From a virus, in IMG/VR virus record IMGVR_UViG_3300009506_000169, positions 1-26,217 of that record: 26,217 nucleotides of DNA; one strand, given 5' to 3'. A model generated the notes under the pieces. It was not told the origin of the DNA. It saw nothing but the letters and a program-made list of their open reading frames with translations, and did not search any database. Shown here one piece after another: positions 1 through 6,639 of this stretch (positions within the stretch are counted from its first letter, which is position 1; the number at the start of each line of letters is the position of its first letter). A program made the position numbers and the translations under genes.

Positions 1-1637
1 ATCTCCATTTCGCCGTCGAGAAGCCCGGTTCGTGTGAGCAACCAGAGCCGCGCTTTCTCGATCGTTTTGAACGATTCTGGCGCGATCGCCCCGACCGAAT
101 CGAGCTGGCTTCCAGGAGGCGCAATCCTGGTTATGTTTTCGGCCGCCGCGCCGGAGCGGTATTCTTCCGGCAGCGTATCATCAAAAGAAATGGTGCGTTG
201 AACGTCTTTCGCGATGCGCGAAACAATGATCCGATTGAGCTGCCCGTCCGTCTGCGGAAATGATTTGATCTCGTCGAAGGAATGCGACCGCGCCCCTCTT
301 TCTAGATTGAATGTGAGGCGGGTCGCGGAATCGTTATGGATATACTCGGCAGTATAACTCGTTTCACCATGAACCGACCGTGACCGGAAGATGTTGACTC
401 GTTGCCCCTTGAACCGCTCGTCTGCCGTGACGAACCATTCTTCATTGTCGATCGAAACAGTACCGAAGCCGGTGATCACCCGCGTCGTCATCGGTGCGAT
501 CGCGTTTCTGTAGTCGTCCTCCGTTACGAGGCGCAGCGGATATTCGAGAGAGCTTTTGTGAAAGCGATCGTAGAAGCCCCGCTTCTTGTTTCTCGTTGAT
601 ACGTGAGACCAATAAAAATAAAGCAGCTGGTCAATCGACTGGATGACGTGTCGATTCAGGCCGACCTCGACCGATTTCTTGAACGTCCCCAGGTTCGACT
701 CGATGATTCCCTTCGCATTCGGGTGGCCTGGCAGGTGTGTGCGAACCTCAACCCCGAGGACATCGCAGAAGGTATGAACGGCGGTCGATCCGCCGATCCC
801 GGATCCTTTGTCGCAGAAAAGGATTTTCGGCAATCCGTAAACCGGGCTATCTGCGAGCGGGGCTTTGTAGCCCTCGAGCGGGGATTTCTGTTTCGGCAAC
901 CAGAGCCACTGCAAGAACTTCAACCAGACCTCCGCGCGTTCTCCAAACACTCGCCGGCCAGGGAGTGCCGGTTCCGCGAACGGGCGAATAAAGAAGGCTT
1001 TCGAGTACATGTCGATCGCGGCGAACGTCCAAACCTTCGCGAGGCCGCGCTTTTGCAGATCGTCATCCAGGTGGGTGTCACCTGCCGGGTAATCGAACGG
1101 AACGATCTTCCCACGCAAATCCATGAAATAGTGCTCCATCGGGGTCGCATCAACGACACAAACATGGTTCGCATGTTCCGCTTCCAGTCTGTGCGCCATC
1201 GGTGTCCGTGCGAACGCTTTGAATTCCAGCCCGTGTTTTTTCAGAATTCGATTCCACTGGCTGACCGAATAATCGAGTGTGAGTTGCCCGGCAGATTGCA
1301 GCATTTCGACGGCCATCGTCGTCGAGACCCCGTATTTCGCTTTTTCTCCGGGCAGCGTTTTTACAGATGCAATCTTCATCGCTTCCTCTTTTTCGCGGAT
1401 CAATATCGCAGAGGATTTGCGGCTCTTTCGAGTTCGCGGTCCCTCTGCGATATCAGAGATCTGACGGTTTCCTGCTGTGACAGCGCGAAGCTTTTTAATC
1501 GCAGTTGCGCGAGTTTTGATCCCGGTGAACTCCATGAATTCCCGCAGGACTTCACCGCGTTGTGCTTTTCGAGTTGCCTGCTTGTATCGCGTCGCATACA
1601 TCAAAAGGATATCCTGTCCGATCTTCCAGCTCTTCAT
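1..1637 (-). CDS. DDE transposase, Mu A / rve type (3' end outside window)
   Basis: Phage DDE recombinase that would cut and join the phage ends for integration and replicative transposition. The minus-strand frame is open from an ATG at 1637 to the window edge (545 codons seen). The retroviral-integrase-like core is clear: D163 in VVDATPMEHYF, D276 in LFCDKGSG, and E313 in HPNAKGIIESN, spaced D-112-D-36-E. The N-terminal 150 residues are basic and helical, fitting end-binding HTH domains. After about residue 400 comes a beta-rich stretch (GFGTVSIDNEEWFV) like the Mu transposase C-terminal barrel. The start follows the previous gene's stop by 7 nt with a GAGG Shine-Dalgarno. It is the last gene of the leftward operon in view. 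A MuB-like ATPase is not seen and could lie beyond the left edge. Family call is firm; the number of N-terminal DNA-binding domains is inferred. Confidence 0.93.
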   Translation of the reverse strand, partial: MKSWKIGQDILLMYATRYKQATRKAQRGEVLREFMEFTGIKTRATAIKKLRAVTAGNRQISDIAEGPRTRKSRKSSAILIREKEEAMKIASVKTLPGEKAKYGVSTTMAVEMLQSAGQLTLDYSVSQWNRILKKHGLEFKAFARTPMAHRLEAEHANHVCVVDATPMEHYFMDLRGKIVPFDYPAGDTHLDDDLQKRGLAKVWTFAAIDMYSKAFFIRPFAEPALPGRRVFGERAEVWLKFLQWLWLPKQKSPLEGYKAPLADSPVYGLPKILFCDKGSGIGGSTAVHTFCDVLGVEVRTHLPGHPNAKGIIESNLGTFKKSVEVGLNRHVIQSIDQLLYFYWSHVSTRNKKRGFYDRFHKSSLEYPLRLVTEDDYRNAIAPMTTRVITGFGTVSIDNEEWFVTADERFKGQRVNIFRSRSVHGETSYTAEYIHNDSATRLTFNLERGARSHSFDEIKSFPQTDGQLNRIIVSRIAKDVQRTISFDDTLPEEYRSGAAAENITRIAPPGSQLDSVGAIAPESFKTIEKARLWLLTRTGLLDGEME

Positions 1638-1644
1638 ACAATCC

Positions 1645-2550
1645 TCACGGAACCATGGGCTCTTCGGTTCTCTGCTCTTCTCCAGGGTGTGTGTAGATGA
1701 TTGGTGACCATCGATCCCGGAGCCGTTCAATTGCTGCATCGATGCCGGCGATTGCCCGTCCCATGTGTCCGGCAAGCTTTGCGTCCACGAGATCGGGAGG
1801 GATGTTGTCGATCTGACCGAGCCGATCGAGAATGGCTGTGAAGGATTCGTCGAGCAGTTCGGACGCTTCGTCACGATGCGTAACGAATGCGATCCGCATC
1901 CCGTCCAAATCCTTTTTCCCCATGACATCCTGAAGTGTTTTTTCCAGGGAATTGATCTTTTCGTGCAGCTCACGCTTTTCGTCTTCGCTCTGATTAAGCG
2001 CCTGGTTGAGAGTGTTTACAGCCTCTTTCGAATTATTTAGAGCGCTCTTGAGTTTCCCCTCTTTCCCCTTCGAATCCTGTTCGACCTTTTTCTGGAACGA
2101 TCGGATGAACGACGGGAGATCAACCGTTTCGCCTCCCGGAAGAATGACGTGGCCTTCGGAAATTTCAATCTCCCCTTTCTTGAGCGCCTCCATCATCTCC
2201 GGATCTTTTTTCAGAGCGAGGAGCCCTGAAACTGATTGGTCCATGAGCTCGCCTGCGTTTGGCATATCGCCGAATGCATCCGCGATCTCGAGCATCCGCT
2301 GGGCCGTTCTGATTCCGTTTCCGAACATCCCGATGAGCCACTCGTTGAACGACTGACAATCATCGATCAGATAATATTTGTGATCCCGGACATCGCGGAG
2401 GCACAATCCGATTTGATGCAGATTCGACTTGATCTGATCCTTGATCGAATGAAACTGTGCCTGCTGCGCCGGAGAAAAAACGATCTCGCCGCCTCCGCTC
2501 TGATCAGGCAAAACCAGATCCTTCGTTTGCTGCTTCTTAACTTTTGCCAT
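1645..2550 (-). CDS. Coiled-coil early phage protein, function unknown
   Basis: 301 residues. The first ~30 residues are basic and Gln-rich. Residues ~30-110 are helical, with a segment (VRDHKYYLIDDCQSFNEWL) resembling the N-terminal helical region of phage/plasmid replication- or partition-associated proteins (DUF3102-like); that resemblance is from memory and not proven. Residues ~165-215 are a Lys/Glu/Asn-rich heptad stretch likely to form a coiled coil. The C-terminal ~80 residues are helical and acidic. No signal peptide or membrane segment. The start has GAGG 7 nt upstream, and the first 14 nt overlap the end of the winged-helix gene. It sits directly before the transposase gene, so a role in transposition or its regulation is plausible but inferred. 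Confidence 0.8.
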   Translation of the reverse strand: MAKVKKQQTKDLVLPDQSGGGEIVFSPAQQAQFHSIKDQIKSNLHQIGLCLRDVRDHKYYLIDDCQSFNEWLIGMFGNGIRTAQRMLEIADAFGDMPNAGELMDQSVSGLLALKKDPEMMEALKKGEIEISEGHVILPGGETVDLPSFIRSFQKKVEQDSKGKEGKLKSALNNSKEAVNTLNQALNQSEDEKRELHEKINSLEKTLQDVMGKKDLDGMRIAFVTHRDEASELLDESFTAILDRLGQIDNIPPDLVDAKLAGHMGRAIAGIDAAIERLRDRWSPIIYTHPGEEQRTEEPMVP

Positions 2551-2821
2551 CTTTTAACCTCGTTATAAAAAGATCTTTCTCTAGTTTCTGTTTCACAAAC
2601 CATCGCGCCTCGAGGACGCGATGGTAAACCGTGGTCGATATTTTGTAGCTGTTGTAGTGCTTCTCGATCAGATCCGCTTCGCGCAGTGTGAGTACTGCCC
2701 GCTCCACCGCTCGTCGGTTTCGTCCGGTTGCAAGGACGAGTTCATCGATCGTCCAGCTTTGCGGTTCGCGATTCCAGACAAGCTGTAGAATTGTGATTTT
2801 CAGATCTGACCGCGATTGCAT
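2537..2821 (-). CDS. Winged-helix DNA-binding protein
   Basis: 94 residues. A GTG at 2824, directly before the ATG, is an alternative start. Residues ~6-60 read as a winged helix: a first helix (KITILQLVWN), then TIDELVLATGRNRRAVERAV as the helix-turn-helix, then LTLREADLIEKHYNS as the third helix and wing. The C-terminus is basic. The TGA of the endolysin-like gene overlaps the ATG (TGATG), so translation is probably coupled. Such small MarR/GntR-fold proteins usually act as transcription regulators. As part of the early operon it could control the switch to late transcription, but no target site can be assigned. Coding call firm, role inferred. Confidence 0.78.
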   Translation of the reverse strand: MQSRSDLKITILQLVWNREPQSWTIDELVLATGRNRRAVERAVLTLREADLIEKHYNSYKISTTVYHRVLEARWFVKQKLEKDLFITRLKDGKS

Positions 2822-3585
2822 CACGCCACCTGCAACCTGAGTTCGTCGAGCGTCGTTTGGGTGCAGATCCCGTTCGGGAACAATCCGACCTTCGCCTGAA
2901 ATTTCCGGATCGACTCAAATGTCATCGGCCCGAAGTCATCATCGTCACGGATGCCGAGTTTTCTCTGAACCTCACCGACAAGCACCCCCTGAGAGCCGAT
3001 CCGCAAAGAGGAGGATTTGACCGACAGGTCATCATTCTGCATGATGATCACGGCAAAGATCTTCGTCCGTGCGTGACGCTCGTAGGCCCATTCGTACGCC
3101 TTTTTCCATGCGCCTTCAGGAGGATTCATCTTTCCGGTGACGGTAACGCATCCGGCAGAGGCCGGAGCGTATCCGTGAAAGTTGTCGGCAACGATTCCGT
3201 TCTGAACATAGTCATCGTCATCGCCGAGTTCCAGATCGCGGCTGCGCCAGATCGTGAATGACTGATTTTGAACCAGAGCCTGGAAGCCGCGGTGCCATCC
3301 TCTACGCCACGCGTACGGATAGTATCCGGACGCGATGTAATTGCACGCTCCCTGTCCGGCCAACTGTTGCTTCTGATATTTTATATGCGGATACGATCTG
3401 CCCGGAAGCACCTCGATCTCATCTGCATCAACGAGCAGAATCGTGTCACAGATATTGTCGCCGGTATCCTTCACAAAGTCCCCACGTGTATCCGTGTTTC
3501 TGAACACGACCACATGCGGAGTCGTTATATCAATCTTGAACGAGTTGCGCTCGTAAATGCTCTTCAAACGTTCCTGTGTTATCAT
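2821..3585 (-). CDS. Candidate endolysin with C-terminal peptidoglycan-binding domain
   Basis: 254 residues. The C-terminal ~60 residues (194-250) match the PG_binding_1 pattern: SLRIGSQGVLVGEVQRKLGI, then DDFGPMTFESIRKFQ and GICTQTTLDEL. The N-terminal ~180 residues contain NFHGYAPASAGC (H137, S143, C146). This recalls His...Ser-x-Gly-Cys motifs of phage cell-wall proteins and, more loosely, L,D-transpeptidase active sites. No signal peptide or membrane segment is seen, so it would need a holin. A very strong AAGGAGGGG lies upstream of the ATG. The preceding zinc-ribbon frame overlaps this start by 56 nt. It lies among early regulators and the transposase, not beside the holin/spanin genes at 8168-9152. 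The wall-binding role is well supported; the lytic reaction is not determined. Confidence 0.75.
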   Translation of the reverse strand: MITQERLKSIYERNSFKIDITTPHVVVFRNTDTRGDFVKDTGDNICDTILLVDADEIEVLPGRSYPHIKYQKQQLAGQGACNYIASGYYPYAWRRGWHRGFQALVQNQSFTIWRSRDLELGDDDDYVQNGIVADNFHGYAPASAGCVTVTGKMNPPEGAWKKAYEWAYERHARTKIFAVIIMQNDDLSVKSSSLRIGSQGVLVGEVQRKLGIRDDDDFGPMTFESIRKFQAKVGLFPNGICTQTTLDELRLQVA

Positions 3586-3759: not shown

Positions 3760-4053
3760 TTATTTCATCGCACCAGACAGAGCTTCTGCAATTCTCCCGA
3801 TGGCTATGGTGAGCCCGATCGCGATCAGCACGGCTGCGATGACGACGCCACCTACGATCGTTTCGCCCGGATAGTACTTCAGCAGCCATTCAATCTTATT
3901 GCATCCCGCAGCCCATGCGCGCCGGATCTTCGCAAAAATTTTCACCGGATACTTCAACTCCGCTTCCGCATCCGGCACCAGCTTTTCGGACGACTTCTTC
4001 GCGGCACTTGAAACGGCATCGCGGTCTGCCATCTGTTCTGTTTTTTTTGCCAT
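3760..4053 (-). CDS. Small single-span membrane protein (holin-like candidate)
   Basis: 97 residues. The N-terminal half is charged and Ala/Lys-rich. One long hydrophobic helix spans about residues 66-87 (TIVGGVVIAAVLIAIGLTIA), followed by a short tail. A good AGGAG lies 7 nt before the ATG. It is two cistrons upstream of the candidate endolysin in the same leftward operon, so it might help the enzyme reach the wall. One-span class III holins exist, but the Ala/Lys-rich leader is also seen in other small phage membrane proteins. Function is not recognised beyond membrane location. Confidence 0.7.
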   Translation of the reverse strand: MAKKTEQMADRDAVSSAAKKSSEKLVPDAEAELKYPVKIFAKIRRAWAAGCNKIEWLLKYYPGETIVGGVVIAAVLIAIGLTIAIGRIAEALSGAMK

Positions 4054-4101
4054 TCGTGTTCTCCTGTATTTTTATGAATCAAAATGATTCCGTCTTTTGT
4101 C

Positions 4102-4435: not shown

Positions 4436-4666
4436 TCAGTTGTATTTGCTGGATTCCATCTTGTGCCGAATGTCATCCGCTTGATTGTTCAGGCTGTCCA
4501 GGAAGCTGGTAAACTCACAAGCAAGCCCCTTTTTTATCAGAAAGAGCCCGACGGCTGATACGAAGTGAATCAGAGTTGTTCTCTTGTATTCGATGCCTGG
4601 ATCTTTCTGCATTTGCTCGACTTCACGCATGACGGTGAAAACATCTTTGTGTGTGACCTTAACCAT
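4436..4666 (-). CDS. Small hypothetical early protein
   Basis: 76 residues from the ATG at 4666, preceded by AAGGGACGGGG, rather than from the in-frame ATG at 4699, which would overlap the upstream gene. It looks like a mostly helical protein with a semi-hydrophobic middle (LIHFVSAVGLFLIKKGL) that is too polar at its edges to be a sure membrane span. No family recognised. It is tightly packed between the Cro/Ner-like gene and the HTH/RHH-like gene, so co-transcription is near certain. Confidence 0.68.
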   Translation of the reverse strand: MVKVTHKDVFTVMREVEQMQKDPGIEYKRTTLIHFVSAVGLFLIKKGLACEFTSFLDSLNNQADDIRHKMESSKYN

Positions 4667-4677
4667 TGCCCCGTCCC

Positions 4678-4986
4678 TTACGCGACCTTTCGCGGCCATG
4701 TGCGAAGCTGCGGCCAGAGCGACAGCACCTGCGAATCGTTCAGTTCGAGATCGTTCTGGATTGTTGCGATATGCGAAATGCCAGCAAGACGCCCGTTAAC
4801 TGTATCGCTTAACGCGCGATAGTTTATATCGAGATCCGCTGCTGCTTTGGTCAGGTTCCCGTGCTTCATAATGAGCATTCCGCGAACACTTCTGAGGCTC
4901 TCCGGCTTGATCTTTCTCCATGTTGCCTCTTTTGCTGAAGATCCAGCCAGCGCAACCGCGCTAGCCCTATTATTCATTACACTCAT
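4678..4986 (-). CDS. Early HTH protein, Cro/Ner-like, first gene of leftward operon
   Basis: 102 residues. After a variable ~30-residue leader, residues ~35-90 carry a Cro/Ner-type helix-turn-helix: GNLTKAAADLDINYRALSD followed by VNGRLAGISHIATIQNDLEL. The RBS AGAGGG is 5 nt before the ATG. It is the first cistron behind the strong leftward promoter and lies divergent from the repressor, the position of ner in Mu or cro in lambda. A perfect 8-bp-arm dyad sits 14 nt upstream of its start and is a natural candidate for its own binding site. Role by position and fold; no direct family proof. Confidence 0.75.
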   Translation of the reverse strand: MSVMNNRASAVALAGSSAKEATWRKIKPESLRSVRGMLIMKHGNLTKAAADLDINYRALSDTVNGRLAGISHIATIQNDLELNDSQVLSLWPQLRTWPRKVA

Positions 4987-4999
4987 ATTACCCTCTTAT

Positions 5000-5017
5000 T
5001 AGTTAAAGATTTAACTA
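5000..5017. promoter_or_regulatory. Perfect dyad TAGTTAAA-GA-TTTAACTA, candidate Ner/Cro operator
   Basis: Eight-bp perfect inverted arms around a GA centre, 14 bp upstream of the first early gene and inside its leader. Its sequence differs from the CCCAA-type dyads, so a different protein (the Cro/Ner-like product) is the likely binder. Inference from position and symmetry. Confidence 0.5.
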
Positions 5018-5063
5018 CTGAGTGGCCGATAATAGCTTGGCGTGCTCCATTTCACGGGATAAT

Positions 5064-5077
5064 CCCTTTGTTTTGGG
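5064..5077. promoter_or_regulatory. Degenerate third repressor-type site
   Basis: CCCTTTGTTTTGGG keeps the CCC-N8-GGG frame, the TTGGG right half and the same 14-bp length as the two perfect sites at 5139 and 5170, with the left half changed to CCCTT. It lies in the leader of the early transcript. Lower confidence than the other two. Confidence 0.35.
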
Positions 5078-5088
5078 CTTGCCAAACT

Positions 5089-5105
5089 TCCGCCAATTTG
5101 GCGGA
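5089..5105. promoter_or_regulatory. Dyad TCCGCCA-ATT-TGGCGGA in early leader
   Basis: Seven-bp perfect arms around ATT. In the leftward transcript it would form a short hairpin near the 5' end of the leader. No T-tract follows, so it is not a terminator. It may be another protein site or an mRNA structure. Confidence 0.35.
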
Positions 5106-5131
5106 GGATTACTACTACCACTACTACAGGT

Positions 5132-5160
5132 AGTATCGCCCAAAGCTTTGGGAATGTCAA
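5132..5160 (-). promoter_or_regulatory. Leftward early promoter, TTGACA-N17-GATACT
   Basis: On the minus strand a perfect -35 TTGACA (5160-5155) is followed by an exact 17-bp spacer and a -10 GATACT (5137-5132). AT-rich DNA lies upstream. The predicted start is near 5125, giving a ~140-nt leader to the Cro/Ner-like gene. The spacer contains the whole CCCAAAGCTTTGGG palindrome, so a protein bound there would occlude RNA polymerase directly. Confidence 0.75.
5139..5152. promoter_or_regulatory. Repressor operator, CCCAA-AGCT-TTGGG
   Basis: Perfect 14-bp palindrome lying between the -35 and -10 of the leftward promoter. It shares the CCCAA-N4-TTGGG plan with the copy at 5170-5183; the two copies are 31 bp apart, about three helical turns. 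The likely binder is the adjacent cI/LexA-type repressor. Operator role inferred. Confidence 0.65.
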
Positions 5161-5169
5161 TAATAAAAT

Positions 5170-5183
5170 CCCAATATTTTGGG
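5170..5183. promoter_or_regulatory. Repressor operator, CCCAA-TATT-TTGGG
   Basis: CCCAATATTTTGGG, extended to 9-bp perfect arms (AAATCCCAA/TTGGGATTT). It lies between the leftward -35 and the repressor's TTG start, so it could serve both early repression and autoregulation of the repressor. A -10-like TAAAAT for rightward transcription is at 5164-5169, without a good -35. Confidence 0.6.
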
Positions 5184-5198
5184 ATTTGGAGATTTTTT

Positions 5199-5999
5199 TT
5201 GCGTGATAGACTTAAAGAGCTTCTGGAGTGTCTCGGGGTGTCGCAGGCTGAATTTGCCCGCGAGGTCGGGCTGTCGAAAAACCAGCTTGGCGAGGTGCTG
5301 GCCGGGAGGGCGAAGTCGATCTCAACGCCAACGGCAGCCTTGATACACGAGCGATATGGTGTGTCGCTTGAATGGCTCCTCGTCGGGAAGGGTGATATGT
5401 TTGGTGGTAGTGGGAGTAGTAATCCTGCGACAAATCTGACGGAGGATTCCGGAGCTGAACAACCGCTCCGTGAAGGACAGGTGATCCCGCCATCTAATCC
5501 GGAGGAAACCACAACCATCCCAGGCGGGGTGCCGGTTGCGACACTTCCGACTATCGTGCTGCGGTTCTATCCGGGCGGTATCCCGGCGGGTCCGCTCGAC
5601 ACAACTGATGATCACTTCGAGCTGGTTCAGGTGACGCTCACACCTCCTATCCGAAAGGGGTGCATCATGATTCGTGTTCGCGGTGAGTCGATGTTAGGGG
5701 CCGGGATCCTCGACGGGGACATCGTTGTGCTCGATACGAATATAAGGGAGCCTATGGATGGCGATATCGTGATCGTGACGGTAGACGGCGGATCCACCAT
5801 GAAATACTGGTTCCGGCGCGACCGAAGGGTCTATCTGGCCCCACACTCCGATCACCATGACCCGATCGATATCACGGACCGGGACGTTGTTCTAGACGGT
5901 GTTGTCGTGGAGGTCCGTCGGACGTATCAGCGGGCAGCGGCATACAGAAACGGCGGGTCTGACAGGGTCGAAAAAAATGGGGTGAAAAATGAATCGTAA
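5199..5999 (+). CDS. cI/LexA-type phage repressor with S24 self-cleavage domain
   Basis: 266 residues from a TTG start at 5199, chosen because GGAG lies 7 nt upstream and the HTH begins at once; the frame stays open to 5022 but that stretch covers the operators. Residues 1-65 are an XRE-type HTH (VSQAEFAREVGLSKNQLGEV). A Ser/Gly/Thr-rich linker follows. A C-terminal S24 peptidase domain carries the putative cleavage bond A130-G131 (GIPAGPLD), nucleophile S164 in RGESMLGAG, and K202 in STMKYW. It should maintain lysogeny by binding the CCCAA-N4-TTGGG sites and be inactivated by RecA-stimulated self-cleavage after DNA damage. Its last 11 nt overlap the ankyrin gene. Classical Mu repressor lacks this domain, so this switch is lambdoid in type. 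Confidence 0.9.
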   Translation: MRDRLKELLECLGVSQAEFAREVGLSKNQLGEVLAGRAKSISTPTAALIHERYGVSLEWLLVGKGDMFGGSGSSNPATNLTEDSGAEQPLREGQVIPPSNPEETTTIPGGVPVATLPTIVLRFYPGGIPAGPLDTTDDHFELVQVTLTPPIRKGCIMIRVRGESMLGAGILDGDIVVLDTNIREPMDGDIVIVTVDGGSTMKYWFRRDRRVYLAPHSDHHDPIDITDRDVVLDGVVVEVRRTYQRAAAYRNGGSDRVEKNGVKNES

Positions 6000-6639
6000 G
6001 GCGTTATCTATTTTCTTGTTCTTTCTTTCTGTATCGGTTCGTGCCGACGCAGGAGAGGATCTGAAGGTCGCGATCGGAACGCACCGGTTGCTCTCCGTCA
6101 TCAGCATGGTCAAGTCTCGGAAGGTGGATATCAACGGGCGGGAATCCTGGGCCGTTGCTTTTTCCGGTCACCATCACCATGCCAGCTTCAATTATCTTTA
6201 TTCGATGTCGCGTCCGGCTCCTCATCTATTTGGCGCGATTTTGTCAGCGCTCTGCTATTCCGATTTTATCCAGGAGGACGAGGCAAACGAGATGATCCGT
6301 GCCCTTCTGAAAAAAGGAGTTCACCCACCCCGTGACGTTTTGCACGATTGCTCAACTGTCGGGGTGATTCTAAACCTCCCGGTATCGACGGCAAAGATCC
6401 TCGTTGCCGCCGGTGCATCACCGCTCTCGGGCGAGGACGGAAAAAACGATTTTGGGTCGCTGCTGTTTCGGGCTGGAATGTCACCTTATTCCGATCTGGT
6501 CCGCTTTTTTGTGTCGAAGGGGGCAAATGTGAATTTCCGCCATTCCGACGGGCGGTCGGTTTTGCAGGTCGCAAAGCGGCATTTCGGGGCAGATTCGGAA
6601 ACAGTTCAATTTTTGATCCAGCACGGGGCCCGGGAGTAG
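5989..6639 (+). CDS. Exported ankyrin-repeat protein
   Basis: 216 residues. The N-terminus (MNRKALSIFLFFLSVSVRADA) is a clear signal peptide, probably cleaved near residue 21. Ankyrin-type units follow: DLKVAIGTHRLLSVISMVKS near residue 24, TAKILVAAGASPL around 133, and DLVRFFVSKGANVNF and ETVQFLIQHGA near the C-terminus. Ankyrin repeats mediate protein binding. Export suggests an envelope or periplasmic partner. The ATG overlaps the repressor's last codons, so it is likely co-expressed with the repressor in the lysogen. Candidate lysogenic-conversion or exclusion gene; the actual target is unknown. Confidence 0.8.
   Translation: MNRKALSIFLFFLSVSVRADAGEDLKVAIGTHRLLSVISMVKSRKVDINGRESWAVAFSGHHHHASFNYLYSMSRPAPHLFGAILSALCYSDFIQEDEANEMIRALLKKGVHPPRDVLHDCSTVGVILNLPVSTAKILVAAGASPLSGEDGKNDFGSLLFRAGMSPYSDLVRFFVSKGANVNFRHSDGRSVLQVAKRHFGADSETVQFLIQHGARE

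Follow-up and report, generated by a model that had tools for sequence, protein, structure and literature searches.

What keeps the leftward early genes of this phage silent, and which protein reads the palindromes that lie between them and the divergent repressor gene? The preliminary description had proposed that a cI-type repressor does so through a compact operator set unlike that of Mu. We analysed the 26,217-bp stretch as a whole (the window) together with distantly related loci. Our reading, drawn from sequence comparison and given a probability of about 0.87, is that the region would be a B3-type lysis-lysogeny switch in which an S24 repressor, acting on two putative operators named O1 and O2, silences the early promoter PE (Table 1).

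Table 1 Predicted features of the switch region and of the leftward early operon, in window coordinates.
Feature	Position	Strand	Details
Transposase, early operon	3..1700	(-)	phrog_310 transposase E = 2.1e-23; phrog_2610 E = 2.1e-98; cut by window end
301-aa early protein	1645..2550	(-)	phrog_6963; beside transposase, in the position of the B3 DUF3102 protein
First early gene, 102 aa, weak Ner-like HTH	4678..4986	(-)	best Ner-model match in window, E = 0.0074
Inverted repeat arm A, 32 nt	5096..5127	(-)	start of predicted early transcript
Early promoter PE, predicted	5132..5160	(-)	-35 TTGACA 5160-5155, 17-bp spacer, -10 GATACT 5137-5132
Operator O1, putative	5139..5152	(.)	CCCAAAGCTTTGGG, perfect 14-bp palindrome in PE spacer; position kept in relatives
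Operator O2, putative	5166..5187	(.)	AAATCCCAATATTTTGGGATTT, core 5170-5183; spacing kept in relatives
Repressor gene	5199..5999	(+)	XRE HTH + peptidase S24; TTG start, GGAG 5188-5191; in-frame ATG 5154 as alternative start
Inverted repeat arm B	5404..5435	(+)	repressor interdomain linker (GGSGSSNPATN)

The window comes from a distant B3-type transposable phage. It encodes a DDE transposase of the PHROG transposase family in an operon divergent from the repressor, and its gene order is B3-like, with leftward genes for the Ner-like HTH protein, a small HTH regulator (winged-helix-like), the DUF3102-position protein, assigned by its place plus a phrog of unknown function, and the transposase. 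The late genes lie on the repressor side and run rightward, encoding a terminase, portal, Mu F-like minor head protein, major head protein, contractile tail sheath, tape measure and baseplate. B3 and Fc02 (Beetrevirus) share with the window a leftward early operon with an HTH regulator, a DUF3102-type protein and a transposase, a divergent repressor, and overlapping divergent promoters, pE and pC2 of the B3-like Fc02 overlapping in a 106-bp divergent region (PMC9936078). Close sequence kinship to B3 is absent: the transposase is 20–28% identical to its relatives, and a single-sequence tblastn missed B3. The early operon also carries, between the regulators and the transposase, an endolysin-like gene (2821–3585) with a C-terminal peptidoglycan-binding domain, an odd location for a lysis gene.

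The repressor has the layout of S24 (cI/LexA-type) repressors, with an N-terminal HTH (HTH_3, E = 4.6e-8) and a C-terminal Peptidase_S24 domain (E = 3.3e-19), each passing the Pfam cut-off. Among solved structures LexA/UmuD and 434 repressor come nearest, and the Ser (GESM), the Lys (TMKYW) and the Ala-Gly bond (IPAGP), judged by eye, are at their usual places. Its start is uncertain, TTG 5199 having the GGAG seven bases 5′ and ATG 5154 being in frame. With normalised scores of at most 0.25, the protein is remote from the repressors of the relatives, so the window's own operator sequence is not itself conserved; searches of viral and genome collections found no close relatives of the repressor or the transposase, and a search of sequence collections with the exact O1 region returned no match. 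Directly after the repressor gene, and overlapping its end, lies a gene (5989–6639) whose product has ankyrin repeats and a probable signal sequence; it is possibly a lysogenic conversion or exclusion gene.

Direct reading of the minus strand bore out the promoter of the preliminary description, TTGACA and GATACT being 17 bp apart with the whole CCCAAAGCTTTGGG palindrome inside the spacer, TTCCCAAAGCTTTGGGC; transcription would be expected to start near 5125. PE is the only sigma70-like match in 4600–5700 and ranks second in the whole window in a position-weight scan, whose sigma70 model may not fit the host. The second CCCAA-N4-TTGGG, described as lying 31 bp away (start to start) beside the repressor start, was confirmed as an exact match, and these two are the only exact copies in the window. 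The arms of O2 are 9 bp, making it a longer palindrome than originally given; it stands just upstream of the repressor gene, 12–29 bp from TTG 5199, or, if ATG 5154 is the start, within the codons after it. Palindromes paired within 60 bp, with the same 5-bp arms and a 4-nt loop, never arose in 200 shuffles of the window and arose once when the 213-bp intergenic region was shuffled 5000 times; the repeated pair is not a product of chance. By contrast, the degenerate third site proposed at 5064 found no support: it has two arm mismatches, and CCCAAN4TTGGG matches with two mismatches occur at chance frequency across the window. Its 12/16 matches are a level that 4% of shuffled motifs in the region reach, and no peak at its offset was found in the relatives. 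We rejected it as an operator. Other palindromes also occur nearby: a perfect one, TCCGCCAATTTGGCGGA, in the predicted early leader (5089–5105), whose arms differ from those of O1 and O2; an imperfect one in the vicinity of 5420–5448 in the repressor gene, loosely similar to TCCGCCAATTTGGCGGA; and TAGTTAAAGATTTAACTA (5000–5017), just upstream of the ribosome-binding site of the Ner-like gene, possibly a further regulatory site or an RNA hairpin.

The two-site layout is a real recurrence across many related transposable phages, with different letters. Alignment of distant transposases (20–28% identity) fetched a discovery set of 80 viral loci and, with the procedure unchanged, an independent set of 80 bacterial-genome loci; removal of near-duplicates left 58 viral and 48 genome loci, 106 in all. 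At each locus the best early promoter beside a divergent repressor-like gene was taken and the symmetry of its spacer scored, with a 'repressor' profile that had drifted to take in short HTH proteins. At least six of eight symmetric pairs were present in the early-promoter spacer at 66% of the 106 loci, compared with 8.3% of 815 control promoter-like sites elsewhere within those loci (examples are TTGACA-GGTATAAATATTTATAC-CATAAT, TTGACA-GAGGAACAATTGTTCCT-CATAAT and TTGACA-GTTGCAGAATTCTGCAA-CATAAT), and a strong spacer palindrome is missing from about a third of the relatives. The best second copy of a locus's own motif lay 28–34 bp towards the repressor at 32 of 58 viral and 25 of 48 genome loci (9.0% and 9.2% for controls at matched positions; Fisher 5e-18 and 2e-13, respectively), with a mean offset of −31.3 bp in both sets and −31 bp in the window. 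A smaller class of relatives has the copy at about +22 to +25 instead, and the O2 of many relatives overlaps the start codon of the repressor gene. The geometry recurs and the palindrome sequence varies: conservation among relatives, for which the preliminary description had suggested searching with CCCAA-N4-TTGGG, lies in the two-site arrangement and not in its letters. A scan for CCCAAN4TTGGG pairs in viral contigs turned up 31 loci, most of them from an unrelated family with 22-bp spacing that lies more than 1 kb from any S24-like match and that we rejected as the same system. Pairs exactly 22 bp apart, in L089, L091, L093, L094, L096–L099, L101, L104, L106, L108, L110, L112 and L114–L116, apparently represent another conserved operator family.

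Among named phages, B3, Fc22, JBD67 and PhiKM have the spacer palindrome; their second copies lie at −33 (weak), −32, −34 and −30, respectively. The B3 early promoter, TTGACA-GGTGCAATATTTGGCAC-CACTAT, carries its palindrome in the spacer as PE does; unlike in the window, its second copy is weak (10/16 at −33). The repressor of the window has an S24 domain, whereas B3 ORF18 is 136 codons long, and the sequences are unrelated. No spacer palindrome with a second copy was found in the switch regions of Mu, D3112 and DMS3. Mu, itself transposable, resembles the window in having a repressor divergent from a ner-transposase operon, as do D3112 and DMS3 (Casadabanvirus) with their c repressor. In contrast to the window, asymmetric CTTTTCAGTAAT-type sites are repeated in the Mu repressor region, which has no matching spacer palindrome pair, and D3112 and DMS3 are without the spacer palindrome and its palindromic copy at −31, DMS3 having repeated CTATAGAACTTGAAA-type sites. 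The window holds two symmetric sites only rather than the clustered asymmetric Mu-consensus copies of a Mu-type O1–O3 plan, and Mu c is not known to be an S24 protein. The notion of compact cI-type operators in a transposable phage unlike Mu stands as regards the XRE/S24 repressor, the transposable phage and the difference from Mu, but nothing about the plan is special to this phage: a spacer palindrome whose second copy lies on the repressor side, about 31 bp off, is the layout typical of B3-type phages.

Operator similarity across 95 loci correlated with the similarity of the repressor N-termini (Spearman 0.137), exceeding all 300 permutations (largest 0.126; null s.d. 0.035), compared with a weak correlation with the opposite early protein at the Ner position (Spearman 0.057, s.d. 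0.032). In addition, there are many pairs of phages in which the operators are almost the same and the repressors similar (0.4–0.7), with unrelated early proteins (<0.1). Operator similarity tracks the repressor more than the early protein, which indirectly favours the repressor as the ligand. Together with spacer symmetry and second-copy spacing, this covariation strongly favours the two palindromes as operators of the S24 repressor, one in the PE spacer and one on the repressor side, much as the preliminary description had it. Ner-like proteins of Mu-type phages bind between both divergent promoters. Such binding, which the Fc02 paper also describes (PMC9936078), and the presence of a Ner-like gene in the window would suit a reading in which the palindromes serve the Ner-like protein, shutting PE and the repressor promoter in lytic growth while the S24 repressor binds elsewhere; given that the operators vary with the repressor more than with the Ner-position protein, we consider this quite improbable. 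The two proteins might possibly share the palindromes. Lambda CI and Cro offer the analogy, binding shared sites. A purely accidental origin, chance palindromes beside a chance promoter, could appeal to the shortness of the motifs and to the chance frequency of two-mismatch copies in the window, yet the shuffles of paired exact palindromes and a geometry kept in two independent sets refute it in practice and leave it a negligible probability.

For the S24 repressor, a precedent exists in lambda, whose S24-type CI acts on palindromic operators, OR1 overlapping the PR spacer and a further one lying towards the repressor gene. The window is alike in its S24-type repressor and in its palindromes, one in the early-promoter spacer and another on the repressor side, and differs in having two sites ~31 bp apart instead of three ~23–24 bp apart and in that no PRM-like promoter, a lambda feature, was recognised in it. 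We propose that repressor dimers bind O1 and O2, and that the dimer on O1 would cover the spacer between −35 and −10 and exclude RNA polymerase from PE, leaving the leftward Ner-transposase operon silent. O2 is about three helical turns from O1, and hence on the same DNA face; it plausibly helps O1, regulates the repressor gene, or both, probably steadying O1 occupancy through cooperative contact and, from its place at the translation start region of the repressor, probably limiting repressor synthesis. Following DNA damage, RecA-stimulated self-cleavage of the S24 repressor would be expected to lift repression (SOS induction).

How O2 acts bears on where the repressor mRNA begins. The best plus-strand score in a position-weight scan of 4950–5215 was only 6.8 bits, and no consistent repressor promoter was found among the relatives. 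The best plus-strand promoter-like candidate upstream of the repressor, TTGCCA-17-TTTTAT at 4047–4075, has a position loosely like that of the distal promoter pC1 of Fc02. If the repressor mRNA started far upstream, there would be no autoregulation through O2, which would then be a helper site for cooperative O1 binding only. This version has a substantial chance of being right, although somewhat short of even: no strong repressor promoter was found next to O2, repc in Fc02 lysogens is apparently transcribed from pC1 (PMC9936078), and the O1–O2 spacing is near three helical turns, but a dimer on an O2 that covers the repressor start codon, as in many relatives, should keep transcription or translation from starting, and could also act as a roadblock to mRNA coming from a distal promoter. 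It is highly unlikely, in our view, that O2 is mainly an RNA element, its hairpin and T8 (5193–5200) terminating or attenuating rightward transcription or controlling repressor translation; a terminator-like call at 5166–5187 on both strands and the T8 directly before the TTG start point that way, but the stem has just three G-C pairs, five bases separate it from the T run, and it repeats the O1 arms, and what relatives preserve in their second copy is the operator sequence and its spacing, not a terminator.

The switch is framed by an inverted repeat whose arms are 88% identical (28/32 matched) and enclose exactly PE, O1, O2 and the DNA-binding (HTH) domain of the repressor. It scores 20; none of 300 shuffles scored above 14, and none of 73 relatives equalled it, the nearest, L164, scoring 18. 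In L164 (5401–6206), repressor-like and Ner-like proteins are recognisable paralogues, divergently encoded (GIPLAELWPQWYG / ARPLAEIWPHWYG), and its repeat arises from this paralogy and so offers no parallel to that of the window. The reading frames of the two sides agree (GSSNP), and the left-hand one is open as far as a stop at 5015; translation of the reading frame opposite the repeat gave no meaningful match, and among the genes scanned in this partial-genome window the transposase was the only recombinase recognised. The sober reading is that a sequence was once duplicated in inverted orientation, with Gly/Ser codons of low complexity. That the repeat is a recombination boundary, allowing an immunity-specificity module to invert or be exchanged, seems very unlikely; were the module to invert, the HTH domain would gain, in frame, a different short tail that ends at 5015, and PE would face away from the early genes.

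With its layout recurring across relatives, the locus is a switch of an ordinary type, and what is unusual is how well its geometry is conserved. The open papers that were searched contained no report of this family-wide geometry; for the operators of B3-like phages the only useful one was the Fc02 transcription study, the main text of which does not discuss operators (PMC9936078). With the geometry fixed and the operator letters free, operators and immunity groups become readable straight from sequence, and could be read off in this way for hundreds of B3-type transposable phages. The resulting natural repressor-operator pairs could serve the study of how DNA-binding specificity evolves and the prediction of superinfection immunity.
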